In this document: positions 31,293-52,278 of the stretch, in pieces | How the letters are laid out: each line of letters starts with the position of its first letter | Numbering within the stretch: the first letter of the stretch is position 1 | NCBI GenBank assembly: GCA_020853395.1 | Contig: JADYYY010000010.1 | Location: forward strand, 186,001 to 250,000 | DNA length: 64,000 nucleotides | Direction of reading: 5' to 3' | From: Acidobacteriota bacterium | Lineage (GTDB): Bacteria > Acidobacteriota > Vicinamibacteria > Vicinamibacterales > SCN-69-37 | Position numbers and translations under genes: made by a program | The notes under the pieces: model-generated | The model's input: the letters and a program-made list of their open reading frames with translations, nothing else | What the model was told of the DNA's origin: nothing | Databases searched by the model: none

Positions 31293-32138
31293 CTACTTGA
31301 TCGCCGCGATGCGACCGAGCGCTTTGCGAAGCGGCGTGCGAGTCAGGATGCGCTGGCGCAGCGCCCCGGGCGCATGGCCCACCAGCCGTTCGACGGCGCA
31401 CACGGGCCGGGCGCTCATGAGGGCCGTATGGCCGGGCCGCTGCACCGGCACCATGACGCGCCGGAACCCGACCTGTCGCAAGAGTCGCGACAGCTCGACG
31501 CTCGTGTATTCCTTCAGGTGGAACCCCGTGGCCTGCGCGTCGAAGTACTTCGACACATCGTGCGGTCCCGACAGGCGGTTCGGCGTGAACAGCACGTAGA
31601 TGCCGCCGGGCCGGAGCGCCCGGTAGATTTCCCTGAGCTGCTCCAGCGCATCGTCGGGATGGAGGTGCTCCATCAATTGGTCGCTGAACGCCAGGTGCAC
31701 GGAGCCCGGCGGCACGGGGATGTCGCACCCTTTCGAGATGATCAGTTGGCAGTTGTCCGGGAAGACCGCGGTGCTCGTGATCTCGGCCGAGACGTCGACG
31801 GCGAACACCTGACGGACGTGCGCCGCCATGGCGATCGACAACTGGCAATCGCCCGCCCCGATTTCGAGGAACGTCCCGTCGGGCCGGGCCAGCGGCCGCA
31901 GGAAGCCGAGCTGGCTCGCGACGACCCGCCGGCGCGCGTCCGCATCGAGCGTCAAGAGCGGGTGTTCCGGCACCTGGCGGAACAGCTCGTCGTAGAGCTC
32001 GCGGTACAGGTTCAGGCGTTCGGCGCGGGTCGACACGCGCAACCGCTCCGCCAGGCTGCGCTCCACGTCGTAGTGATGGCGCACCTCGTCATAGCGGCCG
32101 GCGGGCACCGGCCGGCGCGTGCGATGAGCGTTAGCCAC
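31293..32138 (-). CDS. SAM-dependent methyltransferase
   Basis: The protein has 281 residues from a GTG at 32138, overlapping the Wzc-like stop by 8 bp. Motif I is FLEIGAGDCQLSI and motif II VFAVDVSAEI. SDQLMEHLHPDDALEQLREIYRAL corresponds to the Methyltransf_11-type middle. A 75-residue helical N-terminal extension (DVERSLAERLR onward) precedes the core. Its place directly after the polymerisation/export genes is compatible with chain-end methylation or chain termination, as in some ABC-exported glycans. That link to the Wzt C-terminal domain is speculative. Confidence 0.85.
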   Translation of the reverse strand: MANAHRTRRPVPAGRYDEVRHHYDVERSLAERLRVSTRAERLNLYRELYDELFRQVPEHPLLTLDADARRRVVASQLGFLRPLARPDGTFLEIGAGDCQLSIAMAAHVRQVFAVDVSAEITSTAVFPDNCQLIISKGCDIPVPPGSVHLAFSDQLMEHLHPDDALEQLREIYRALRPGGIYVLFTPNRLSGPHDVSKYFDAQATGFHLKEYTSVELSRLLRQVGFRRVMVPVQRPGHTALMSARPVCAVERLVGHAPGALRQRILTRTPLRKALGRIAAIK

Positions 32139-34494
32139 GCTGCACCTTCTCGACCGGCGGCACGTCGACGTCGACCGCGGACTCGTCGTGATCGAAGACG
32201 TCGACCTCGTCGGCCTGCGCCGCCGGCATGTAGTACTTCTCGTACGCTCGCTTGTAGTACGGCGAGTAGTAGTACGCGTCGCGCCGGAGATGGACCCGGT
32301 TCAGCACCGCCCCGAGAAACGTCGCGTCCGCCGTCTCGAGCTGCTCGAGCGCGTTGAGCGCCGCCGCGCGCGTGGTCGTCTGCGCCCCGACCACGAAGAG
32401 GACGGCCGCCGCGCGGTTGGCGACGATGCTCGCATCCGTAACGGCGGCGACGGGCGGCGAATCGAGGATCACCCAGTCGAACCGCTTCAGCAGCGACCCG
32501 AGCATGCGCTCGAACCGCGGCGAGCTGAGCAGCTCGGCAGGATTGCCGACCGAGGCGCCGGACGGCATGACGTGCAGCCCTTGCACGGGGCTCTTGCGCA
32601 GCACCTCCCACCCCTTGGCCTTGCCGATGAGCAGGTCCGAGAGACCCGGCTCCTTCTCCATCCCGAACATCTCGTGGACCTGCGGCCGCCGCATGTCCAC
32701 GTCGACGAACGCGACCGTCCGGCCGGTCATCGCCAGCCCGATCGCGAGGTTCGCGGCGACGAGCGTCTTGCCTTCCCCCGGCCCGGTGCTCGTCACGACG
32801 ATCGACCGCGCCCGGTTCTCCGCCGTGAAGACGACGTTGGTGCGGACGCTTCGAAACGCCTCGGAGAAGAGCGGCGTGTAGGTCTCGCGATCGTGCAGGA
32901 GCGGCCGCGTGCCGTCCTTCTCGGTCACCGCCGGGATCATCCCGAGGAACGGCAGCGAGAGGTACGCCTTGATCTCGTCCGGTGTCTTGATGCGATCGTC
33001 GACGTACTCGAAGACGAAGGCGAACGCGACGCCGAGGAGCAGGCCGAAGAAGACGGAATACAGCAGGGTCCGGTTGCGCTTGGGCCAGACCGGCGACTGC
33101 GGCACCTGCGCCGGATCGATGACGCGCACGTCGCTGGCCTTCAGCTCGCCCGAGATCCCCTTCTCACGCGTCCGCGCGAGCAGGCTGTCGAAGATCTGCC
33201 GGTTGGTCGTCACCTCGCGCTCGAGCGCGCTGTAGGTGATGCCGGTCCGGTTCATGTCCATCACTTCGGTCTTCTGTGCCTCGAGCGCCTGCGTGAGGCT
33301 GTGCTCCAGCGTGCGGGCGGCGTCGACCTCGACGCCCATCGCTTCGACCTGCTTGGCCAGCTCCTGGCGGAACTTCGCCTCGGCCGCCGCGATCGACGTC
33401 CGCAGCTCGACGATGACCGGATTCCGATCGCCGAGCTCCTGCGATCGCTTGCTCAGGTCGCCCTGCAGCCGCGAGATGTCGGCCTTCAGTTGCTGGAGGT
33501 ACGAGTTCGAGAGGATGGCCGGCAGCGTGTCGAGCGACGCCTCCTGCTTCTGGATCGCGAGCACCTGGTTGTAGACCGCCTCGCGGGCGATGCGATCGCC
33601 CTTGGCCTTCGTGACCATCGCGTTCAGATCCGACAGCTTCTGCGCCACGATGTTCTGCCGGTCCTCGAGCGAGACGGCGTCGTTGTTCTCGCGGTACTTC
33701 TGCAGCGCCTGCTCGCTCGTGTTGATGCGCTCGCGCTGCGCCGACAACTGCTCGGTCAGCCAGTCGGTCGTCTCCTTCGACGCGCTGATCCGGATCTCGA
33801 GGTTCTGATCGATGTAGGCCTTCGCGAGGGCGTTCGCGGCGCCGGCCGCGAACTTCGGATCTCCGGCGCGCACTTTGACGTCGACCAGGCGGCTCGTCTT
33901 CACCGGCGAAATCGTCAGGCGCGCGAGCAGCGCATCGATCGCCCGCGTCTGGGCCGGCGTCTCCTGGGTGCCCGCCGACGGCGGCGGCGCGGCAGCCGCG
34001 GGCGCGGCCTCGTTCTTCTCTCCACGCAGCCGCTGCACCAGGCGCGTGGCGGCGCGAAACACGCCGGAGAAGATGCTGGTCTGTTCGAGCGTCCCCTGAG
34101 CCAGCTCCGGATGGGTCCACGCGTTCATCGCCGCCAGCGTCCGCGATGCCAGCGAGCGGCTCTGCAGAATCGTGTACTGGGTGTTGTAGAAGTCCGTCGT
34201 TTCCCGATCCTGCGTGACCCCGGACTGCAGCGAGAAATTCTCCGTGTCGTGTTCGATCAGGAGCTGAACGGTGGCTTCGTAGATGGGCGTCGCGGTCTGG
34301 AGGTGCACGACGGCCAGCGTCACGATCACGGCCAGCGTCGCGACCGCCGCCCAGCGGCGCTTGACGAGGATCCGCACGTAGTCGAGCAGGTGCCGATCGA
34401 GCGTCGGCGGCCCGGATCGCCCCTCGGCCGACGTTGCGGCCCCGCGCGACTCGGCGAGCGATATCGGCGCCGACGAACGGGAGACGACGCGCAT
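32131..34494 (-). CDS. wzc: Polysaccharide copolymerase/bacterial tyrosine kinase, Wzc-like
   Basis: The protein has 787 residues. A Wzz domain starts near 28 with a membrane helix at about 50-68. Long coiled coils (about 190-420) precede a second helix (LLYSVFFGLLLGVAFAFVF). The cytoplasmic kinase has Walker A TGPGEGKTLVAANLA, Walker A' FVDVDMRRP and Walker B DWVILDSPP. The C-terminus has a tyrosine cluster (DAYYYSPYYKRAYEKYY) for autophosphorylation. It controls chain length and export with Wza. The gene overlaps the Wza-like stop (ATGA) and the methyltransferase start. Confidence 0.95.
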   Translation of the reverse strand: MRVVSRSSAPISLAESRGAATSAEGRSGPPTLDRHLLDYVRILVKRRWAAVATLAVIVTLAVVHLQTATPIYEATVQLLIEHDTENFSLQSGVTQDRETTDFYNTQYTILQSRSLASRTLAAMNAWTHPELAQGTLEQTSIFSGVFRAATRLVQRLRGEKNEAAPAAAAPPPSAGTQETPAQTRAIDALLARLTISPVKTSRLVDVKVRAGDPKFAAGAANALAKAYIDQNLEIRISASKETTDWLTEQLSAQRERINTSEQALQKYRENNDAVSLEDRQNIVAQKLSDLNAMVTKAKGDRIAREAVYNQVLAIQKQEASLDTLPAILSNSYLQQLKADISRLQGDLSKRSQELGDRNPVIVELRTSIAAAEAKFRQELAKQVEAMGVEVDAARTLEHSLTQALEAQKTEVMDMNRTGITYSALEREVTTNRQIFDSLLARTREKGISGELKASDVRVIDPAQVPQSPVWPKRNRTLLYSVFFGLLLGVAFAFVFEYVDDRIKTPDEIKAYLSLPFLGMIPAVTEKDGTRPLLHDRETYTPLFSEAFRSVRTNVVFTAENRARSIVVTSTGPGEGKTLVAANLAIGLAMTGRTVAFVDVDMRRPQVHEMFGMEKEPGLSDLLIGKAKGWEVLRKSPVQGLHVMPSGASVGNPAELLSSPRFERMLGSLLKRFDWVILDSPPVAAVTDASIVANRAAAVLFVVGAQTTTRAAALNALEQLETADATFLGAVLNRVHLRRDAYYYSPYYKRAYEKYYMPAAQADEVDVFDHDESAVDVDVPPVEKVQRG

Positions 34495-35414
34495 CAGAAG
34501 AACTTCTCCGGCACCATGATCGTGTCGTTGGCCTGTACGGTGTCGTTCAGCGTGACCTTGAGCTCGAGCTGTTTGCCGTTCATCGTCCGGACGATCTTGA
34601 CGCGGCTGGTCGCGCCGCGATCGGTCGCGCCGCCGGCCATCGAGAGGTACTGCAGGACGGTCACGGTTCGGGAATAGCGATAGGGACCGGGGTTCTTCAC
34701 CTGGCCGAGGATGAAGACCTGCTCGGCGCGGGTGACGAAGATCGTGTCGCCGGCCTGGATTTGCACGTTCTCGGCCAGATTACCCGTCGAGAGCGCGTCG
34801 AGGCTCACGCGCCGCACGTCGGCGGCCCCCGCTTGATCGGGACGCACCGGACCACCGGCGGCACCCGCACGCGGTCTCACGATGAGCACTTCGTCGCCCG
34901 CATCGGGCTTCGTCGATCCGGCACGCGCCAGCGCCTGGATCAGGGTCTCCTGGCCGCTGAGGTAGAAGCTGCCCGGCTGGTTCACCTCGCCGAGCACGAA
35001 GAACTGCTGGCTGCGATACGTCTCGACCGCGATGCTGACCTGCGGATTCCGCAGGTAGTCCGGCGAGAGCAGGCCGGTGAGCGTCATCTCGAGATCCCGC
35101 ACGCTCAAGCCGCCGGCCTTGACGCGTCCGACCAAGGGAAACGCGAACACGCCGTCGGCTCCGACCGTGTAGCGGCCGGTGAGATCGGGCTGACCGAAGA
35201 CGGTGATGAGCAGCACGTCGTTCGGCCCAACCTGGTACGCCCGCTCGCTCGCCGACGCCGCCGGCACCTGGGATGGTGCCGGCGCCGATCCTGGTGCGGG
35301 CGCCTGCGCGATCGCCGCATCGACGGAGACGGCCGTTGCCGCGATCAGCCACGCCGCACACCACATCCGCCGCAGCGAGAGACGTCGAGAGTGAAACGGC
35401 ATCTCAGAATTCAT
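34494..35414 (-). CDS. wza: Polysaccharide export protein, Wza-like with SLBB domain
   Basis: The protein has 306 residues. An ATG at 35414 overlaps the barrel gene; the ATG at 35402 (MPFHSRRLS) is equally possible. A signal peptide (LRRMWCAAWLIAATAVSVDAAIA) lacks a lipobox Cys, unlike classical Wza. The poly-export domain covers about 60-140 (YQVGPNDVLLITVFGQPDLTG). Two SLBB-like segments follow (FFVLGEVNQPGSFYL and VFILGQVKNPGPYRY). It should form or contact the outer-membrane channel together with the beta-barrel encoded just upstream and the Wzc-like kinase downstream. Confidence 0.93.
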   Translation of the reverse strand: MNSEMPFHSRRLSLRRMWCAAWLIAATAVSVDAAIAQAPAPGSAPAPSQVPAASASERAYQVGPNDVLLITVFGQPDLTGRYTVGADGVFAFPLVGRVKAGGLSVRDLEMTLTGLLSPDYLRNPQVSIAVETYRSQQFFVLGEVNQPGSFYLSGQETLIQALARAGSTKPDAGDEVLIVRPRAGAAGGPVRPDQAGAADVRRVSLDALSTGNLAENVQIQAGDTIFVTRAEQVFILGQVKNPGPYRYSRTVTVLQYLSMAGGATDRGATSRVKIVRTMNGKQLELKVTLNDTVQANDTIMVPEKFF

Positions 35415-36624
35415 AGCTTACCGAGTTCCCGATCTGCCAGGAGGTGTAACTGTGCCCCGGCTCGGCGGATTCGCGGCGAACGCCGCGCGCGTCGACGCCG
35501 ATCCGCATGCCGCGCGCGAGGTGATAGCCCACGCCGACGCCGCCGCCGGAGAAGCGTTCCGGCCGCGTGCTCGCCACCGGTGTCGTTGCGAGCGTCCGGT
35601 ACGTCATGCGCTGACGGCTGAGCGACGCCACGACGTCCCAACGACTGCCAATCCGCTCGGTGACGCCGACCGTCACGCCGGATTGCACGAAATACGGACG
35701 CGCGAGGTCGTACGAGTACGTCAGATCCCGAGCGAACGCCACGCTGAGCCTGGTCCGCGTCCGAATCACGCTGGCCAACCCGAGGTTGGCCACGAGGCCG
35801 CGAAACGCGGGCACGCCGGCTTGCGAGGGCGTCAACGATCGGAAGCCCACGTAGGCGGCGCCGGAGATGAGCGCGGTCCGCGCGAACTCCACGCCGGGCG
35901 CGAGCCGAAAGCCGTGCGCGTTCCGCTGCGGCGTGCGCGCGAACTCGTCGCGCAGCCATTCGCCGAGAACGACCACGGTCGTCAGCGGCGTCCGCGCGTA
36001 GCGGAGGCTGAGCGATACCGCATCGCCGCGCCGATTCAGCGCCGACGCCAGGCTCGTCCCCTCCACGCGCGCGGCCTCGTCGAACCCGACCGCGGCGCTC
36101 AGCAGATCCACTCGGAGCGTCGTCTTCGAGGCGACGCGGAGATCGGCGCCGACGACGACGTCTCGCTGCGATCGATGCACGCGCTCGTTGATCTCGAGAC
36201 CGGGCCGCTCGCGTGCCTCGGTCGCCACGGCGCTTGCCCTGAGCAACACCCGATTGAACGGCCACTGGAATGCCACCGTCTGGCTGAAATTGCGCGTTCG
36301 CTGGTTGGCGTACCGGTGGTAGTAGCCGAAGCTCGGAACGGACGTCGCGGTGAGCTGCCCGCGCGAGAGCCGCATGCGAAGGTCGATGGCTGGCGTCAGC
36401 ACGAAGGACGTGTCCTGCTTGGGATCGACCGGCTCGTTGAACACGTTGCTGTCGAGACCGAGGTTCGACAGCGTGATCCGCGGAATCACCTGCACGGCCC
36501 CGAGCCGTAGCGCTCTCGGCGCGCCGTCGTCCTGCCCTGCCGCCGGTGCCGCCGCGCCGGTGAGCAGGGCGATCAGCACGCCGCCCGCCATGACCGCACG
36601 CCCGGCCCGCGGCGGGCGCGACAT
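35404..36624 (-). CDS. Outer-membrane beta-barrel protein of the exopolysaccharide locus
   Basis: The protein has 406 residues from ATG 36624 (MSRPPRAGRAVMAGG). A signal peptide ends near AAPAAGQ. The rest alternates hydrophobic and polar residues in strands of about ten, with many Arg/Thr/Tyr. It ends in Tyr-Glu-Phe (NSVSYEF), the terminal Phe typical of BAM substrates. RITLSNLGLDSNVFNEP near the start resembles putative beta-barrel porin-2/EpsL-type proteins of exopolysaccharide clusters. It lies 1 bp after the UDP-glucose dehydrogenase gene and overlaps the Wza-like gene. A role as accessory outer-membrane export pore is inferred. Confidence 0.85.
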   Translation of the reverse strand: MSRPPRAGRAVMAGGVLIALLTGAAAPAAGQDDGAPRALRLGAVQVIPRITLSNLGLDSNVFNEPVDPKQDTSFVLTPAIDLRMRLSRGQLTATSVPSFGYYHRYANQRTRNFSQTVAFQWPFNRVLLRASAVATEARERPGLEINERVHRSQRDVVVGADLRVASKTTLRVDLLSAAVGFDEAARVEGTSLASALNRRGDAVSLSLRYARTPLTTVVVLGEWLRDEFARTPQRNAHGFRLAPGVEFARTALISGAAYVGFRSLTPSQAGVPAFRGLVANLGLASVIRTRTRLSVAFARDLTYSYDLARPYFVQSGVTVGVTERIGSRWDVVASLSRQRMTYRTLATTPVASTRPERFSGGGVGVGYHLARGMRIGVDARGVRRESAEPGHSYTSWQIGNSVSYEF

Positions 36625-36625
36625 C

Positions 36626-38008
36626 CTAGGCGTGCGCCGCGGCGGCGGCGACGACCGGCGGCCGGCCATAGTCGAGCCCGATGCCTTCGTAGCGGGCGAA
36701 CTCATGACGCTGGAAGACGCGGCGCCCGTCGACGACGACCGGCTGCGGCTCGCGCGCATTGACGAGGCCGGGCAGGCTCGCCAGCTCCGGCCAGGACGTC
36801 ATGACGACCGCCGCGGCGGCTGTCGCCACGGCCTGCTCGACGCTCGCGGCCAGCTCGATGCGTTCGCCGAAGATGGCGTGGGCCGTCTCGACCGCCGCCG
36901 GATCGTAGCCGGTCACGCGCGCGCCTCTATCGAGGAGCGCCGCGATCAGCGGAATCGCGGGCGACTCCCGCATGTCGTCGGTGCCGGGCTTGAACGCGAG
37001 CCCCAGCACGGCGATCTCGACGCCCGCGAGCGTCTCGAAGTGCTTGTCCAAGAGCGCGAGCACCCGCAGCGGCTGCTGCCGATTGACGGCGAGCACCGAC
37101 TCGAGCAGCGACATCGACACGCCGGCGTCGTGCCCGTGAGCCACCAGAGCCTTGACGTCCTTGGGAAAGCAACTGCCTCCGAAGCCGCAGCCCGCCGCCA
37201 GGTACCGCAGCACCTCGGGGCCGGCGGGTGCCCCGAGCGGGGTCAACCGGCGATCGAGGTGCACGCCGCGCATCACGTCAACGGCATCGACGTTGCCGAT
37301 CGCGCCGCACAGGTTCCCGATCTCGTTGCTGAACGAGATGAGCGTTGCGAGCAGGGCGTTCGCGGCGTACTTGATCATCTCGGCCGTTCGCGTGCTCGTG
37401 CGCAGCACCGGACAGGGATCGAACGGTGCGTACAACGCTGCGACCGCGGATCCGGTGCGCTCGTCGGCCGCGCCGATGACGAGCCGATCCGGATGGAGGA
37501 AGTCGCCGAGCGCCTCGCCCTGACGCAGGAACTCCGGGTTCATCGCCACGCCGAAGTCGACGCCGGCCCGTTTCCGGGACGCCCGCTCCAGGACCGGCAT
37601 CACGACGTCGTCCGTCGTGCCAGGCACGACGGTGCTCTTGACGACCACGACGTGAAAGGACGGCTTGCTGGCGAGCGCGGCGCCGATCTCCTTGGCCGCC
37701 GCGGCCACTTGACGCAGGTCGATGTGCTCGCCGTCGAACGGTGTGCCGACGGCGATGAACGTGATGTCGGTCTCGGCGACGGCACGCGCGAGATCAGTGG
37801 TCGCCCTGAGGCGGTCGCCCGCGGCGGCGAGCAAGGCTTCGAGCCCCGGCTCGTAGAAGGGCGCGCGTCCCTCCCGGATGGCATCGACTTTCCGAAGGTC
37901 ACGGTCGACGCAGGTCACGACGTGCCCTCGCGAGGCGAAGCACGCCCCGGTGACGAGGCCCACGTACCCCGTACCGACGATGGAGACCCGCGCGGCGCTA
38001 CTTCGCAT
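36626..38008 (-). CDS. ugd: UDP-glucose 6-dehydrogenase
   Basis: The protein has 460 residues from ATG 38008; an ATG three codons upstream (38017) is the alternative. The NAD loop is GTGYVGLVTG (12-21). NPEFLRQGEAL and the catalytic thiol C280 in GCGFGGSCFPKD are intact, as is the C-terminal AFKPGTDDMRESPA motif. It oxidises UDP-glucose to UDP-glucuronate in the cytosol. The next enzyme in the operon (37998-39095) looks like UDP-glucuronate decarboxylase, so UDP-xylose or a related sugar is a likely product. It overlaps that gene by 11 bp. Confidence 0.95.
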   Translation of the reverse strand: MRSSAARVSIVGTGYVGLVTGACFASRGHVVTCVDRDLRKVDAIREGRAPFYEPGLEALLAAAGDRLRATTDLARAVAETDITFIAVGTPFDGEHIDLRQVAAAAKEIGAALASKPSFHVVVVKSTVVPGTTDDVVMPVLERASRKRAGVDFGVAMNPEFLRQGEALGDFLHPDRLVIGAADERTGSAVAALYAPFDPCPVLRTSTRTAEMIKYAANALLATLISFSNEIGNLCGAIGNVDAVDVMRGVHLDRRLTPLGAPAGPEVLRYLAAGCGFGGSCFPKDVKALVAHGHDAGVSMSLLESVLAVNRQQPLRVLALLDKHFETLAGVEIAVLGLAFKPGTDDMRESPAIPLIAALLDRGARVTGYDPAAVETAHAIFGERIELAASVEQAVATAAAAVVMTSWPELASLPGLVNAREPQPVVVDGRRVFQRHEFARYEGIGLDYGRPPVVAAAAAHA

Positions 38009-39095
38009 GAGCGGCATACCAGAGCAGCGACCGGCGAACGCCCTCGGCCAGCGTCACGCGCGGTTCGTAGCCGAGCTCGGCCCGCGCTTTGGCGATCGAT
38101 GGACAGCGACGGGTCGGGTTGTCCACGAGATACTGCGGATCGCCGCTCACCTCGAACGCGAGGCGTCCCGCATAGCCAAACAGCTCCCGTGCCTGAGCGA
38201 TGACGAGCTCGGCCAGCTCGCGCATCGTGATTTCAGGCTGCTCGGTGCCGATGTTGTACGCCTCGCCTGCACGGCCGCGCACGAGCACCTTGTAGTAGCC
38301 GATGACGGCGTCCGCGACGTAGCAGAACGTCCGCGTCGCCGTGCCGTCCGAGTAGAGCACCACGTCGCGTCCCTGCAACACGCACGACGCGAGATCGGGC
38401 AATACCCGCCGGTCGGCGATGTCCAGGCCGGGACCGTAGTTGTTGAACGGGCGCGCGGTCGTGATCGGCAGACCGTGCTGGCGGGCGAAGTTCCAGCACA
38501 GCGTCTCGCCGAAGCGCTTGGACTCGTCGTAGCACGCCCGCGGACCGGTGCAGGACACCAAGCCTCGGAAGGTCTCGTCGGTCGGAATCCGATCCGCCGG
38601 CGGATCGCCGTAGATCTCGCTGCTGGAGTAGAAGAGAAAGCCGCGGACGCGCCGGTCGGCCGGACGCGCCGCGGCATGGTCGAGCAACCGGCGCAGCCCG
38701 TGGATGTTCGCGTCCATCGTCTCGATCGGGTGCTGTCGGTAGAAGGTCGGCGATGCGATGGATGCCGCGTGCACGATGAAGTCGGCGGCGGCGGCGCCCG
38801 CCGGCAGCTCGCGCGTGATGTCGTGCTGGACGACCTCGAGCGACGGATCCTGCGCCGCAGCCTGCAGCCAGGCGGGGACGCCTCGGATGTAGTTGTCGTA
38901 CACGGTCACGCGGATGCGACGTCCCGTCGTCACGTCGCGATTGCGATGGAGCACCGCCTGGACGAGATAGTGTCCGAGAAACCCGGCGCCGCCAGTGATC
39001 AGGAGGTGACTCCCGCTCATGGCGTCGAGCTCCTGCGACGCGCCGTCGCAGATGTAGGCAAGGTCGGTCTCGACGACGTCGAGCGTGGCGATCAC
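37998..39095 (-). CDS. NAD-dependent epimerase/dehydratase, UDP-glucuronate decarboxylase-like
   Basis: The protein has 365 residues from a GTG at 39095 that overlaps the previous stop (GTGA). An ATG at 39020, with CAGGAG nine bases upstream, gives a protein 25 residues shorter. I prefer the GTG because the extension (VETDLAYICDGASQELDAM) looks like the N-terminal extension I recall from related decarboxylase-like SDR proteins. The NAD loop is ITGGAGFLGHYL, the catalytic motif YDESK and the downstream motif NNYGPGLDIADRRVLPD. UXS enzymes make UDP-xylose from UDP-glucuronate, supplied by the Ugd of this operon. A 4-epimerase is the alternative. Confidence 0.85.
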   Translation of the reverse strand: MIATLDVVETDLAYICDGASQELDAMSGSHLLITGGAGFLGHYLVQAVLHRNRDVTTGRRIRVTVYDNYIRGVPAWLQAAAQDPSLEVVQHDITRELPAGAAAADFIVHAASIASPTFYRQHPIETMDANIHGLRRLLDHAAARPADRRVRGFLFYSSSEIYGDPPADRIPTDETFRGLVSCTGPRACYDESKRFGETLCWNFARQHGLPITTARPFNNYGPGLDIADRRVLPDLASCVLQGRDVVLYSDGTATRTFCYVADAVIGYYKVLVRGRAGEAYNIGTEQPEITMRELAELVIAQARELFGYAGRLAFEVSGDPQYLVDNPTRRCPSIAKARAELGYEPRVTLAEGVRRSLLWYAAHAK

Positions 39096-40132
39096 GATGA
39101 GCGACTCCCCTGTTGCGCCCGCTGCGGCGGGAACGTGAACGGCGGCGCCGGGCCGCTGGTCTGCATCCAGCTCCGCAGCGCGCGGCGCAGTCCATCCTCC
39201 AGCTCGACGCGCGGCATCCAGCCGGTCAGCCGCCGGACCCGTGCGTTGTCCACGACGAGATCCGGACTGGCGGGCGCCGGCGCGGCGGACTCGGTCACCG
39301 TCACCCGCCCGAGCCCCGCCTCGGCCGCGACGCCGGCCAATGTCCTCGCCATCGTGCCGACCGAGGTGCCGACGCCGCTCGACACGTTGAGGATGCGCGA
39401 GGCGGTGCCGTCGCCGTCGGTGCAGGCGAGCGCAATCAACGCGGCGGCGGCATCGTCTTCGTACAGAAAGTCCTGCATCGCGCCCAGGTGGCGCAGCACG
39501 ATCGCGTGGGCCGTCGTCGCCTGCGACAGCGCACGACCGACGAGCGTCGTGGCGTCGAACGATGTGCCGTACACCCAGGAGAGACGGGCGATGTCGCAGC
39601 GTACGCCGAGCCGAGACGCGGCCGCCTGCAGCGCCACTTCGGCCGCGAGCTTGCTCGCGGCGTAGACCGTCAGCGGCGCCGCCGGATGATCCTCGGTCAC
39701 CGGCAGGAACTGCGGGTGGCCGTACACGAGCGCGGTCGAGACGTAGATCAGACGGGAGACCCCGCAGCGATGACACGCGTCCAGCACCTGGACGGCCCCC
39801 TGGGTATTGACTTCATAGGCGCGGACGATCTGCCGGCTGAGACATTCGGCCGGGCTGAGGCCTGCCAGGTGGAAGACGACCGAGCAGCCTCGAAAGGCCG
39901 CATCCACGGCGGACGGGTCGAGGATGTTGCCGACGAAGTGCCGGACCGACGGCCCGCACAGCGCCGGCTCGAGCACGTCGGGCGACTGGCGCCCGAGCGT
40001 CGTGACCCGCTCGACACCCGCATCGAGGAGCGCGGCGACGAGCGGTCGACCGAGCGCGCCTCGTCCTCCCGTGATGGCGACGCGCTTGCCTTCGAGGCGT
40101 GCGCGCGGCGATCCGGCCAACCCGGTGGGCAT
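39092..40132 (-). CDS. NAD-dependent epimerase/dehydratase (extended SDR), first gene of the operon
   Basis: The protein has 346 residues from ATG 40132; a GTG at 40198 would add 22 unpromising residues. No good ribosome-binding sequence is visible for either. The NAD loop GGRGALGRPL deviates from GxxGxxG by position but is usable. VVFHLAGLSPAEC, VSTALVYG and the catalytic YAASK are present. The C-terminus (TGWMPRVELEDGLRRAL) is typical. It is probably a nucleotide-sugar 4-epimerase or reductase; the substrate cannot be assigned. It heads the 40-kb minus-strand run. Confidence 0.85.
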   Translation of the reverse strand: MPTGLAGSPRARLEGKRVAITGGRGALGRPLVAALLDAGVERVTTLGRQSPDVLEPALCGPSVRHFVGNILDPSAVDAAFRGCSVVFHLAGLSPAECLSRQIVRAYEVNTQGAVQVLDACHRCGVSRLIYVSTALVYGHPQFLPVTEDHPAAPLTVYAASKLAAEVALQAAASRLGVRCDIARLSWVYGTSFDATTLVGRALSQATTAHAIVLRHLGAMQDFLYEDDAAAALIALACTDGDGTASRILNVSSGVGTSVGTMARTLAGVAAEAGLGRVTVTESAAPAPASPDLVVDNARVRRLTGWMPRVELEDGLRRALRSWMQTSGPAPPFTFPPQRAQQGSRSS

Positions 40133-40673
40133 GGCCAACGACGACGGCGCCCCGGCGGATGCGGTCGACTGCTGGTGATGTGAGATGTCTTGCGGCACGA
40201 TGCGAGGAAGCAACTCGAGTGCGTGTGGGTGCGTAGCTTCGCCCCGTAAGCACGGGTCGCCAAGTTCGCGGCGATCGTGCCCAAGCGTGACGTCGACTCC
40301 GTCTGTCTGCGGCTGCCAGGAGCACAGCCGCCTGAGGGGACCAGACGGGATGGTCGTTTCAGCAAGGATCAAGCCAGTGATGCCTCTCGGCGAATCGCGA
40401 AACGCCTGGTGAAACGCCATCTCGCAATCGAGATCGGAGGCGCTGCTCACCGCTGACGCGTTCGGTCAGGTCGTTCTAAGTCAGCTCTCGGGATTCCTTT
40501 TGTTTGCTTCTCCCGGCAGGGTTCGCTGAGCTCGCGAACCAGCGGTGCCATTCGGCTTTCCGAAATCGCCGGCGACGGCCGCCAATACACGGTCCACCGG
40601 CTGATACTAGCCCGCTGCCCGCGCTGGGCTGGTCCAGGCGACTTGGATGATCTCTTGCAGCTCCGCAAGGCGC
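40133..40673. promoter_or_regulatory. Divergent intergenic leader between the polysaccharide operon and the nusG-like gene
   Basis: About 540 bp without a convincing gene. It must hold the promoter of the 40-kb minus-strand operon and that of the plus-strand antiterminator gene, but no clear -35/-10 pair can be read. A perfect 5-bp hairpin CCCGT-AAGC-ACGGG lies at 40243-40256, next to the 14-base motif cgtagcttcgcccc (40232-40245). That motif recurs after the nusG-like gene (41276-41289). Base composition is visibly more AT-rich around 40490-40520 (ccttttgtttgcttc). A structured RNA leader is possible but not recognised. Confidence 0.4.
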
Positions 40674-41258
40674 ATGAGTCGAGCTTCTCTGCACGAGACA
40701 GAAGTCGCCACGGGCAGCGACTCCTTCCGCCAGCCGGATATTGTCGATCGCGAGTCCAGTGGGCTCGGATCTCTGGTCTGGCACGCCGTGCTGACGCGCT
40801 ACCGCCACGAGCGGAAAGTGTGCGACCAGTTGACGGGCAAACAGATCGAGGTGTTCTTCCCGACGACGTTCCGGTGGAGCGTGCACGGCCGGCACCGCAA
40901 GCGCGTCGAGTGGCCGCTCTTTCCTGGCTACTGCTTCGTCCGGATTCCCAGCCATCTGCTGATCCCGGTGCTCTCGTGCGCGGGCGTTGCGCACATTGTG
41001 TCGTTCGCCGGAAAACCCGCACCAATTCCCGATTACGAGATTGAGGCCATCCAACGGCTGATCACGACGTCGCTGGCATACGACGCGCTGCCATTCGTCA
41101 AGGAAGGCGCTCCGGTCCGCGTCATCCGCGGACCGCTCGCGGGCACGAGAGGACGGCTCGTCCGCAAGGGGCTCAACTACCGGCTCCTGCTGGCCATCGA
41201 GCTGCTCGGCCGGGTTCTCAGCGTCGAAGTGGATGCATCGGACGTCGAGCCGGCGTGA
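40674..41258 (+). CDS. NusG/RfaH-like specialised transcription antiterminator
   Basis: The protein has 194 residues from ATG 40674, preceded by AAGG; an ATG at 40647 would add nine residues. The NGN domain starts at WHAVLTRYRHE (36-46) and includes VFFPTTFRWSVHGRHRKRVEWPLFPGYCFV. The C-terminal KOW domain is VKEGAPVRVIRGPLAGTRGRL. Length and position match UpxY/LoaP/RfaH-type paralogues that ride with RNA polymerase through long exopolysaccharide operons. It is divergent from the operon it presumably serves. The N-terminal 35 residues are unusual and poorly defined. Confidence 0.9.
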   Translation: MSRASLHETEVATGSDSFRQPDIVDRESSGLGSLVWHAVLTRYRHERKVCDQLTGKQIEVFFPTTFRWSVHGRHRKRVEWPLFPGYCFVRIPSHLLIPVLSCAGVAHIVSFAGKPAPIPDYEIEAIQRLITTSLAYDALPFVKEGAPVRVIRGPLAGTRGRLVRKGLNYRLLLAIELLGRVLSVEVDASDVEPA

Positions 41259-41520
41259 CGTCGTACGTCCCCGAACGTAGCTTCGCCCCTTGGACGTGGG
41301 GAGTATTGCCCGCGTAACGCCTGTTTGGATTGTCGCTGCCGGGTGTGAACGTCACGTGCCCGAGTGGCAGCATGCTCCTGGAGAGCAAGTCTCGCGCCTC
41401 GCTGGAATCGAGACCAACAGACCAGTTCGGGCCGGCGTCGTTCTCTGACGCATGCTCGACGTTCTCAAAGTACGTCGTCCTCTACCCACAGCCTTCGGCT
41501 GTGGGTCTGGCCTGGCCGCG
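41259..41520. other. Intergenic region between nusG-like and SET genes
   Basis: No credible gene. It holds the second copy of cgtagcttcgcccc (41276-41289), followed by a CCCC/GGGG stem, and a strong hairpin at 41484-41506 (annotated separately). Short open frames on both strands here have no recognisable protein features and overlap the hairpin. Confidence 0.5.
41484..41506. terminator. Perfect 10-bp stem-loop, probable bidirectional terminator
   Basis: ACCCACAGCC and GGCTGTGGGT form a perfect 10-bp stem around a TTC loop. It lies 15 bp beyond the stop of the minus-strand SET gene and downstream of the plus-strand nusG-like gene, between convergent transcription units. No T-tract follows on either strand, so the termination mechanism is uncertain. 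Confidence 0.6.
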
Positions 41521-41931
41521 TCAGAGCCGCGTTCGACATCCGGGCCGGCATCGGCACGGGATGATCGCGTCGCCGTCCGTCCGGTAGTCGTACGAGAGCT
41601 CTTCACCCGCGGCGATGTTCCGCGACGCGCGGATCCAGATGACGTCGCCCACGACCTGCGAGTAGCAGTTCGGCCGGCACGAGTGGTTGATGAACCGCGC
41701 GAGATTCCCGCCGACCGACGCATCGCGCACCCAGCGCGCATCGACCGTGAAGCACCAGACCTCGCCGCGCGCGAGCTGCCGGCGCTCGCGGCGAAGGCTC
41801 TCGCGATGCGAGATCTTCTCGCCGGCGTAATCGATGATCCGGGTGTTCTTCGAAATGGCGACGTTCGTGTAGACGCCCCAACCGGCGATTCTCGATCGCC
41901 GCCGCACGAGCGCGCCAGGCGGTACAGGCAT
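41521..41931 (-). CDS. Small SET-domain protein (protein-lysine methyltransferase-like)
   Basis: The protein has 136 residues and is almost entirely a SET domain. The start is RSRIAGWGVYTNVAI, the pseudoknot motif FINHSCRPNC and the catalytic-site motif GEELSYDYRTD. A post-SET-like cysteine cluster follows (PCRCRPGC: C-x-C-x3-C). The C-terminus ends at RTRL. Eukaryotic relatives methylate histone lysines. Bacterial stand-alone SET proteins are scattered and their targets are mostly unknown; ribosomal or DNA-binding proteins are candidates. It is divergent from the esterase gene, with an AT-rich spot (tataac, 41961-41966) between them. Confidence 0.9.
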   Translation of the reverse strand: MPVPPGALVRRRSRIAGWGVYTNVAISKNTRIIDYAGEKISHRESLRRERRQLARGEVWCFTVDARWVRDASVGGNLARFINHSCRPNCYSQVVGDVIWIRASRNIAAGEELSYDYRTDGDAIIPCRCRPGCRTRL

Positions 41932-50191: not shown

Positions 50192-51957
50192 CGTTCCGCA
50201 CGCGCACGTTCCTCAGCGCCCTGATCTCGACGGCGCTGGCGCTCGGCCTGTCGATGCTGCTCGTCGAACGCGCCGTGCCGCAGTTCATGAAGGAGGACGT
50301 GGATCGCGGGCTGCTCAACCAGGCGCAGCTCGCGGCATCGCTGCTCGGCCGGGCTGCCCTCGACGATCCCGACCGGGAGGCGGATGCCATCGGCGCGCTG
50401 CTCGGCGAGCGCGTGACGTTCATCGCGGCCGATGGCGCGGTCGTCGGCGACTCGGAGGTGGCGCGCGATGCGCTCGCGACGCTCGAGAATCACGCGTCGC
50501 GCGAGGAGATCGTCGCCGCGGGGCGGGCGGGCGAGGGCCTGGCGTCGCGCACGAGCCACACGACGGGCGTCGAGACGCGCTATGCGGCGGTGGCGGTACA
50601 CGGCGGGCCGGTCGCGTTCGTGCGGATCGCCCTGCCGCTCACCGCGATCGACGCGCGCGTGGCCGCCGTCCGGCGGCTGGGGGTGCTCGGATTCGGCGCC
50701 GGGCTCGCAGCGGCGGTGGTGCTCACCGGGCTCGCGTCGGTGCTCCTGCACCGGCGGCTGCGGGCCGTCGCGGAGGCCGCCGCGCGCTACAAGGCGGGCG
50801 ACTTCAGCCGCCCCGCCCGCGATCACGCCCGCGACGAGATCGGCATCGTCGCCAACGCGCTCGATACCACCGCGCGCGAGCTGGGCGCGCGGCTGACGGA
50901 GATCGAACGCGAGCGCGCGCACATGGCCGCGCTACTGGCCGGCATGGTCGAAGGGGTGATCCTCTTCAACGGCGCCGGACGGCTGGTGCTGACCAACCCG
51001 GCCGTGCGTTCGATGTTGCGGCTGCCGGATGCCGCCGAGGGCCGGCCGTACCTCGAGGTCGTCCGCCAGCCGGAGATCGCGCGAGCGGTCGCCGCAGTGC
51101 TCGACGGCGGCGACGCGGCGCCCGTCGAGGTGCAGCTCGACGGCGTGGACGCGCGACGGGTGTTCGTGGCGCACGTCGTGCCCGTGGCCCGCGAGCGGGG
51201 CGGCGGCGCCGTGCTCGTGCTGCACGACATCACGAGGCTGCGCCAGGCCGACCAGGTGCGGCGCGACTTCGTCGCCAACGTGTCGCACGAGCTTCGCACG
51301 CCGCTCACGGCGATCCGCGGCGCCGCCGAAGCGCTGATCGACGACGGCCGGATCGCGCCGGAGTCGCAGGCGTTCGTCGAGATGATCACCCGCCAGACGC
51401 AGCGGATGGAGCGGCTCGTGCGGGATCTGCTCCGGCTCGCGCGTCTCGACGCCGGCCAGGAAACCATCACCCGCGAGGCGTGCCGTCTCGACGGGCTCAT
51501 CGCCGGCGTCGCGCGCGATCTGCACGCATCGGTGTCGAGCCGGGAGCAGCAGGTCCGCATCGATGTCGCGGCGGATGCCACGGTCGTGACGGCCGACGCC
51601 GCCAAGCTGGGCGACGTGCTCCGCAATCTGATCGAGAACGCCTCGAATTACGGCCCACCGGGCAGCGTCATCGACGTCCGCGCCACGCGGGATGCCGGCG
51701 CGACGGTCATCAGCGTCGCGGATCGCGGCCCGGGCATTCCGGAGGCCGATCTCTCGAGGGTGTTCGAGCGGTTCTATCGGGTCGATCGATCGCGCACACG
51801 AGACCCCGGCGGCACGGGCCTCGGCCTGTCGATCGTGCGCCATCTCGTCGGGTTGCACGGTGGTACAGTGACCGCGGCGAACCGCGACGGCGGCGGCGCC
51901 GTGTTCACGGTGACACTGGAGAGCACGGGTACGACAGGTACGACGGGTCCAAGGTAG
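50188..51957 (+). CDS. PhoR-like sensor histidine kinase
   Basis: The protein has 589 residues from a GTG at 50188 overlapping the regulator stop (GTGA). Two membrane helices (about 8-28 and 165-185) bracket a periplasmic sensor. A HAMP segment, a PAS domain ([18 protein letters not shown]) and HisKA follow, with the phospho-acceptor His in [13 protein letters not shown]. The ATPase has [21 protein letters not shown] and [10 protein letters not shown]. The last ten residues ([10 protein letters not shown]) are encoded by the repeat element that begins at 51926, so the original C-terminus was probably altered by it. Confidence 0.95.
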
Positions 51958-52278
51958 GAGCTTCGCGGGTCATCGTTCAGATACGACGGGGACGACAGGT
52001 ACGACCGGTACGACGGGTCCAAGGAACGAGCTTCGCTGGCCATCGTTCAGGTACGACGGGGACGACAGGTACGACCGGTACGACAGGTCCAAAGAACGAG
52101 CTTCGCGGGTCATCGTTCGGGTACGACGGGTGCGACAGGTACGACAGTCCGACGCCGGGGCTATCGCCAATCATCGTCCTTGAGATTCGCTGAGCATGGA
52201 GAATAAGGAAAAGATGACAAGCATCACAGTTCCTTGGACCTGTCGTACCCATCGTACCCGTCGTACCTGTCGTACCCG
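51926..52278. mobile_element. 353-bp inverted-repeat element between phoR-like and rmlA genes (candidate non-autonomous element)
   Basis: Bases 51926-51948 and 52256-52278 are perfect reverse complements over 23 positions. Between them lie three 70-bp direct repeats and the short leader frame. The left arm is inside the last codons of the kinase gene, and the right arm ends one base before the rmlA ATG. No transposase or clear target duplication is visible. It could be a miniature inverted-repeat element or a grown minisatellite with a hairpin-forming function. Confidence 0.5.
51941..52140 (+). repeat. Three 70-bp direct repeats
   Basis: Units start at 51941, 52011 and 52081, each beginning CGAC(G/A)GGTCCAA and containing AGCTTCGC, TCATCGTTC or CCATCGTTC, then TACGACGGG. 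The last ten bases of unit 3 diverge. In units 2 and 3 GAACGA and TCGTTC form a 6-bp stem around 13 bases. Each unit also carries nonamers of the type GGTACGACR, which recur in inverse orientation ahead of rmlA. Confidence 0.9.

Follow-up and report, generated by a model that had tools for sequence, protein, structure and literature searches.

An ops-like sequence element before exopolysaccharide genes in an order of Acidobacteriota, probably a boarding site of a UpxY-family antiterminator

We propose that a short sequence on the minus strand of the window (the whole stretch of 64,000 nucleotides analysed here) is an ops-like pause-and-recruit signal in the leader of an exopolysaccharide (EPS) operon, and that it is probably the boarding site of the UpxY-family antiterminator encoded next to it. 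This sequence, termed copy 1, matches the core of an element that is conserved in the host order, lies before EPS genes and on their strand, and co-occurs with UpxY genes. A preliminary description of the same DNA had noticed a 14-base motif on both sides of a NusG-like gene and had suggested that it might recruit the antiterminator. That core idea is well supported by the sequence comparisons given here, although the functional strand is the minus strand and its evident target is the divergent EPS operon rather than the gene of the antiterminator itself.

The gene between the two copies of the motif (Table 1) encodes, over its whole reading frame, a protein of 203 residues, conserved from near residue 44, that matches Pfam NusG (3.3e-15) and NCBIfam antiterm_UpxY (106.2 bits, above the cut-off of 100) and falls below the cut-off of the RfaH equivalog TIGR01955 (64.0 vs 144.5 bits). 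By these family matches it is a UpxY-family antiterminator, with a predicted activity, and the motif does bracket a gene of the NusG type as first described. It adjoins the EPS operon, from which it is immediately divergent. The open reading frame (ORF) of the first epimerase in that operon could start at 40450. Its homologs in 59 relatives (at most 28 candidates scored per genome) are two partial ones, 32-33% identical, which align only from residues 120 and 121 of the long ORF, and the part of the ORF upstream of about 40132 is therefore probably non-coding. The first EPS gene then probably starts at the ATG at 40132, which would place copy 1 in an untranslated leader, about 100 nt upstream. 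An orthologous EPS locus was not obtained among the 59 relatives, where these two partial first-gene homologs were all that was found. Promoters and T-run terminators were not recognised at the locus; the perfect hairpin between the convergent upxY and SET genes, which has no T run, is a possible two-way terminator. The SET gene is an observation in its own right, a SET-domain protein encoded in a bacterium.

Table 1. Features of the locus around the two copies, in window positions
Feature	Position	Strand	Basis
Copy 1, element core GGGGCGAAGCTACG in EPS operon leader	40232..40245	-	Core matrices rank 2; exact 14-mer
Copy 2, same core, 17 bases past upxY stop codon, antisense to upxY	41276..41289	-	Core matrices rank 1
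GCGAAGC, proposed non-template-strand mini-hairpin	40236..40242 (copy 1), 41280-41286 (copy 2)	-	ops-like C:G and G:A pairs
RNA hairpin immediately upstream of copy 1, EPS leader	40247..40283	-	RNA fold, z -3.39
upxY-like antiterminator gene, NGN + KOW	40647..41258	+	Pfam NusG, NCBIfam antiterm_UpxY
NAD-dependent epimerase, likely first EPS gene	39092..40132	-	Pfam Epimerase from residue 124 of long ORF
EPS operon beyond first epimerase	32131..39017	-	Pfam
Second epimerase, EPS operon	start near 39017 (inferred)	-	Pfam
UDP-glucose dehydrogenase, EPS operon	36626-38017	-	Pfam
BBP2_2 porin, EPS operon	35404-36759	-	Pfam
Wza/Poly_export, EPS operon	34494-35414	-	Pfam; separate Poly_export search
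Wzc-like, EPS operon	32131-34494	-	Pfam
Perfect 10-bp hairpin, 3-base loop, between convergent upxY and SET genes	41484..41506	.	Inverted repeat, no T run
SET-domain protein gene, minus-strand upstream of copy 2	41521..41931	-	Pfam SET 1.2e-22

In the window letters, and hence on the plus strand, both copies are the exact 14-mer CGTAGCTTCGCCCC, as the preliminary description had it; the minus-strand reading, which has the direction of the EPS operon, is GGGGCGAAGCTACG. The repeated 14-mer by itself is weak evidence and unremarkable in this window, which holds 22 direct repeats of at least 14 nt within 1.3 kb, vs means of 3.7 and 4.9 in Markov sequences. Elsewhere in the window (51931-52140), direct repeats 13-33 bases long and almost identical to one another form a cluster in which a spacing of 70 bases is frequent. 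The genome itself (4,281,051 bases, 21 contigs) has no copies of the 14-mer beyond these two with up to one mismatch allowed, so the proposed search for further copies returned only the pair already known. One of the 59 relatives carries the exact 14-mer, as a single copy within a long open frame and with no sign of a NusG-like gene; across the relatives the plus-strand 14-mer gave no signal above chance, and it is absent from their UpxY loci. The concern that the motif might be missing near the nusG-like genes of relatives is thus borne out for the full 14-mer; the conserved core, read on the other strand, does occur there. It is by matching an element derived from other genomes that the 14-mer rises above chance. 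A dispersed repeat was considered and rejected, the copy-2 region having no full-length second copy in the genome; in the same check an exact 24-mer was not found in the wider contig collection.

The hairpins reported beside the two copies exist on paper (CCCGT/ACGGG at 40243-40256 and CCCC/GGGG at 41286-41301), but as plus-strand single-stranded DNA they fold no better than shuffled sequences (z -0.70 and 0.22). As RNA, copy 1 with its neighbours gives z -3.39 on the minus strand, equalled by 0 of 200 shuffles, and z -2.62 on the plus strand, equalled by 3 of 200, and for the surroundings of copy 2 there is no gain over shuffled sequence (z -0.32 minus, -0.83 plus). The Rfam scan that had been recommended yielded nothing, with 0 matches above the gathering score in the window over all families; on three relatives' loci (L036, L039, and L040) nothing relevant was found, the one sub-threshold match lying elsewhere in L036. 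An exact E. coli ops was not found in the window, and the single match with one mismatch, inside upxY (40795, minus strand), is by our estimate within chance expectation. The GTAGC of the motif, which had been taken as the likeness to ops, is simply the GCTAC end of the element read on the opposite strand; what resembles ops is GGCGAAGC. Because the motif is nearly palindromic, the plus strand shows GTAGC too. This, together with the bracketing of upxY and the good folding of the plus-strand RNA of copy 1, would suit the autoregulation raised in the preliminary description, by a plus-strand element that lies in the leader and at the 3' end of upxY and acts on that same gene. We consider such control very improbable indeed, since at the 101 oriented sites described below wza lies only downstream, on the strand of the element, and the plus-strand reading carries no pause consensus.

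The element emerged when the window was compared with the non-coding flanks of UpxY genes at three loci; a single block was shared, the reverse complement of the motif, GGGCGAAGCT. In the genome's own second UpxY locus on contig C3, and in G003 and G004, this block lies just 3' of upxY, before the next gene of the EPS locus and on the EPS strand. Scanning the loci at hand with GGGCGAAGC gave a longer common sequence, CTGTRASYSASRGGGCGAAGCT, near EPS genes in further genomes. This 22-nt pattern, with up to two mismatches, matches 101 sites in 70 of the 162 genomes of the host order, and the reversed pattern, as a control, gave 5 matches over all 162. All 101 sites were re-found in the surrounding DNA (mostly 6 kb per side where contigs allowed), and the 99 with full flanks give the consensus CTGTRASYSASRGGGCGRAGCTNYRYC, beyond which conservation is slight. 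Column counts within the searched 22 nt are partly set by the pattern; the preference for NYRYC in columns 22-26 is independent because these columns are absent from it. The 98 tolerated mismatches are uneven, with 33 on the first base, 2 on the loop-closing G of the proposed hairpin and none on its GC, A and G, even though each of the 101 sites was allowed two. Covariation is strongest between neighbouring columns (10-11 and 7-8) and next between 10 and 17, and no covarying columns of the element form base pairs. A universal upstream RNA hairpin was rejected as part of the element: its enrichment is weak (-20 to +20, mean z -0.73 vs -0.03 to -0.05 far upstream; z below -1.5 at 20% of 98 sites vs 8-13% far upstream), and a hairpin occurs at a minority of the relatives' sites. 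Over-represented k-mers around upxY genes, also tried, were swamped by the coding sequence of conserved neighbours.

As to the position of the sites, a wza gene lies downstream on the same strand within the retrieved stretch at 61 of the 101 sites and in any other position at none; Wza is present at 60 of the 86 sites having at least 4 kb downstream, and of the 40 sites without Wza in reach, 14 have less than 4 kb. Wzc-like matches are mixed (downstream on the same strand at 26 sites, upstream at 6, on the other strand at 1). In a separate search of 40 genomes, Poly_export was found within 6 kb downstream of 19 of 27 sites, always on the same strand, and 37 of the 56 Poly_export matches in these genomes have no site. 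The genome under study has three Poly_export genes, and the element is absent from the 19.9 kb surrounding the third of these loci (L078, G000:C10:321592). Most sites (75 of 101) fall outside called ORFs. By our own reading of the list, 18 of the 26 inside ORFs are within 361 nt of a same-strand ORF start and probably reflect over-long ORF calls; 8 are antisense inside called ORFs, some of them surely by chance. Domain scans of 48 of the 81 listed genes after Wza-less sites found EF-hand-like repeats in 4 and glycosyltransferase domains in 3, in addition to the sigma-54 activators discussed below. As a separate observation, a small protein with weak EF-hand-like matches is encoded right after the element at five loci (L184, L189, L204, L211, and L218), and by eye the gene following the genome's own C3 site resembles these small-protein genes.

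Both window copies have the core RGGGCGRAGCTNYRYC and deviate in its last bases (CA and TT). When about 128,000 window positions are scored with the 16-nt core matrix, copy 2 ranks first and copy 1 second, at 17.9 and 16.2 bits with the next site at 10.5. The order holds with a matrix made without the own family (18.1 and 16.6, next 10.6), from Wza-linked sites only (17.2 and 15.1, next 10.2), and from exact sites only (19.3 and 17.5, next 10.9); over five core matrices, copy 2 scores 17.2-19.3, copy 1 15.1-17.5, and the best other site 10.2-10.9 bits. The upstream half of the element, CTGTRASYSAS, is missing from both copies, which score -1.4 and -5.9 bits with the full 27-nt matrix, vs 43.9 at the genome's own C3 site; by eye, copy 1 resembles the upstream half only with one base deleted. 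In simulated sequence, scores of at least 16.2 bits occur at 20 of 28.7 million positions, so that about 6 chance sites are expected genome-wide and the core score is telling only together with position; a core scan of the genome with one mismatch gave 28 matches vs 47 for the reversed core. These 6 expected sites, the missing upstream half and the abundance of repeats in the window would all fit a 14-base repeat that resembles the core by accident. We hold this to be distinctly improbable, since at 7e-7 per position one site in the divergent region of about 1,030 positions corresponds to an estimated p near 7e-4, two sites lie on the EPS strand around a UpxY gene, and the 14-mer had been chosen in the preliminary description without knowledge of the element.

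In two of five checked loci where the UpxY gene is more divergent, a core is close to upxY: in G056 a 19.0-bit core follows the upxY frame by 99 bases and stands where a Wza-encoding frame begins, and in G034 one of 17.5 bits lies where the upxY frame begins, so that the choice of start codon decides whether it precedes the gene or falls within it. In G015 the best core is about 7 kb from upxY, and in G016 and G028 none is near it. From these two cases we guess, and no more than guess, that a core and its UpxY drift together. More speculatively, the host order may possess a two-part ops-like code, made up of an upstream block and a hairpin core whose GRA loop has three bases, and divergent UpxY paralogs may have altered that code.

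The conserved part of the element has the form of a pause signal. With the pyrimidine of NYR set at -1, the consensus reads G-11 G-10, six bases, T-3, N-2, Y-1, R+1, and columns 22-26 (NYRYC) fit the reported pause consensus G-10 Y-1 G+1 (PMC9291695), which ops has also been described as matching (PMC5995543). Among the 99 aligned sites, 94 have Y at -1 and 78 have R at +1. Both window copies have G at -11 and -10, T at -3, C at -1 and G at +1, and in sequence both thus carry G-10, Y-1 and G+1 in the non-template strand. In the register that we infer, the RNA of copy 1 paused here is predicted to end 3' at 40233, with 40232 as the next base.

A second likeness to ops lies in the exposed strand. 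The stem of the ops hairpin has the pairs C3:G8 and G4:A7 (PMC6391919). From the same start the element has C, G, R, A, G. Both pairs could therefore form in it as well, around a loop of one base where ops has two; the five columns hold these bases at 99, 97, 99 (as R), 99, and 99 of the 99 sites. ViennaRNA with DNA parameters shows no predicted fold for the isolated 14-mer, and the pairing bases are nearly invariant. The sequence GCGAAGC is an unusually stable DNA mini-hairpin. The signal would share with the E. coli ops/RfaH system the leader of polysaccharide operons, a 12-nt pause signal with a GGCG start and a pyrimidine-purine end (two K-12 copies compared), and the C:G and G:A hairpin pairs (PMC5995543, PMC6391919). 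The placement of copy 1 would also be that of ops, in sense orientation on the minus strand and about 100 nt ahead of the first gene of a long polysaccharide-type operon. In contrast, where ops has GGCGGTAGCGTG the element has GGCGRAGCTNYR, with one base fewer in the loop and without the T6 that flips out; the ops sequence itself is not found in the window, which has GGCGAAGCTACG and has in common with ops GGCG and the pyrimidine-G end. In RfaH, T6 sits in a pocket of H20, R23, Q24 and R73, with G5 packed beside it (PMC5995543). The protein here is of the UpxY family instead, and the base-contacting residues of RfaH are mostly not kept in UpxY: the window protein has Q, G, K and A aligned with the four, R73 among those replaced, and thus differs at all four T6-pocket residues, as expected if the loop differs. 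At the R23 position, the six aligned relatives have R in L036, L040, L007, and L020 and Q in L039 and L017.

Of the other known systems, JUMPStart (39 bp, including ops) occupies the same place and likewise has an extra conserved block directly upstream of its ops part, and some element sites look alike (CTGTAAGTCAGGGGGCG vs CTGTAAAGCCAGGGGCG in K-12 rfb). Whole elements align with JUMPStart at a mean of 19.4 for rfb vs 13.4 for shuffles (sd 3.1) and 15.9 for wza vs 12.7 (sd 2.6). This likeness comes mostly from the ops part; the upstream halves are little above shuffles (rfb 11.1 vs 8.8, sd 2.1; wza 8.3 vs 8.7), and descent from JUMPStart was rejected because they are too dissimilar. The upstream block as it stands in E. 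coli is not found, and the window copies are without even the order's own upstream half. LoaP of Bacillus velezensis is also a NusG paralog that acts on long operons through a leader element, but it binds an RNA hairpin of the UNCG type (PMC12691694), whereas the conserved part of the present element is a linear sequence with a pause consensus and its upstream RNA hairpin is weakly enriched. In Bacteroides, UpxY reportedly recognises the paused polymerase via non-template DNA and upstream duplex DNA (Saba et al. 2024, Nat Commun 15:10862). On this description, the Bacteroides capsule-operon sites would share with ours a UpxY-family protein and a two-part layout; they are said to belong to another phylum, and differ in that here one sequence is common to many species and upxY is divergent from the operon.

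The link between the element and UpxY proteins rests on co-occurrence and adjacency. A UpxY hit (1e-40) is found in 63 of 70 genomes with the element vs 57 of the 92 that lack it (Fisher p 5e-5, with no kinship correction); conversely, the element is missing at this stringency in 57 of the 120 UpxY genomes, and the hit is missing in 7 of the 70 element genomes. Those 7 genomes are among the points that would suit another reader, the element being an EPS leader or pause signal read by housekeeping NusG, a sigma-54 regulator or an RNA-binding protein, and the adjacency of upxY a coincidence. UpxY is moreover at only 12 of the 101 sites, sigma-54 activator domains occur in 6 of the 48 scanned genes after Wza-less sites, and in 5 of 9 annotated loci (L037, L038, L043, L046, and L047) upxY is away from EPS genes, between a SurA-like ORF and a dus-like gene, in what we take to be a housekeeping-like row mfd - surA - upxY - dus. 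In these five loci UpxY would need to act in trans, as does RfaH. We nevertheless regard a reader other than UpxY as unlikely, since UpxY both co-occurs with the element and lies upstream on the same strand at 11 sites (at the twelfth it is downstream), position and pause register copy the RfaH/ops arrangement, and RfaH too is encoded away from its targets (PMC7593976). Conserved upxY genes are also present without any Poly_export hit in at least G001, G026, and G035, and the conserved upxY may have other targets. A search of the genome for the NusG-domain family returned two genes, the window upxY and its paralog on contig C3; the search missed 4 of 14 control genomes, so absence of a housekeeping nusG is not implied, and that it went unseen is probably a limit of the search. 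The window protein has no close homologs in the contig collection by a search that detects close relatives only, and none above about 55% identity in the 162 genomes of the order (best about 55%).

We favour recruitment of UpxY by the element, in the following hypothetical sequence of events. RNA polymerase from the EPS promoter would pause at copy 1, on the minus strand in the untranslated EPS leader, because of the pause consensus there (GG, six bases, T, any base, pyrimidine, purine). In the exposed non-template strand, GCGAAGC would form a small hairpin; in complete elements the duplex behind the bubble would contain the upstream half. UpxY made from the divergent gene would recognise the paused complex, board the polymerase and carry it through the long EPS operon.

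Copy 2 shares the strand of copy 1 and lies 1,044 bp upstream; it could belong to an upstream leader as a second boarding site, could be an antisense control site, or could be a relic of the event that placed upxY. Regarding the last, the two copies may be scars of a upxY insertion, by target duplication or by recombination between short direct repeats: direct repeats flank a segment of 1,030 bp, and the gene that they flank is without a close relative in the 162 genomes of the order. We think this improbable, since the repeated sequence is itself a conserved core, neither a transposase among the ORFs nor an inverted repeat at the segment edges was seen, and a duplicated core could still work. 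A more speculative arrangement, quite unlikely in our estimation, has upxY nested head-on in the leader of the operon that it activates, between two boarding sites, so that EPS making silences upxY. EPS transcription, or read-through from the SET side, would start right of copy 2, where UpxY would board; the polymerase would cross upxY antisense and re-engage at copy 1. If true, this would give the antiterminator gene a built-in negative feedback or a two-state switch. A double site also occurs elsewhere (L179, G040:C89): ahead of a single EPS operon it has two same-strand elements at a distance of 632 nt, and only one weak ORF separates them.

With the motif probably a boarding site of the antiterminator, an open question on this protein family would become testable. 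In 2020 the recruitment of operon-borne NusG paralogs (UpxY and TaA) was called unknown (PMC7593976), and the work on LoaP has since given one answer (PMC12691694). A second answer is said to have come since 2020. The work on UpxY in Bacteroides is reportedly its source. The element adds a conserved, sequence-defined candidate recruitment site in many species of another lineage, and a natural test of the logic of ops in which the pause and the hairpin pairs are the same and the loop and the protein are different. It also offers a DNA signature for recognising where EPS operons begin in genomes that have been little studied. Among titles and abstract openings in a collection of largely freely accessible papers, none points to an ops-like element or to a target site of UpxY in this phylum. 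In a phylum-wide search with a slightly different pattern, 67 of 396 genomes match (92 sites by our count vs about 49 reversed-pattern matches), and outside the host order there are 62 sites, eight of them mismatch-free; the element therefore probably extends further. Exact matches to the pattern outside the order and within the phylum were observed in G186, G196, G274, G340, G352, G482, G493, and G169.
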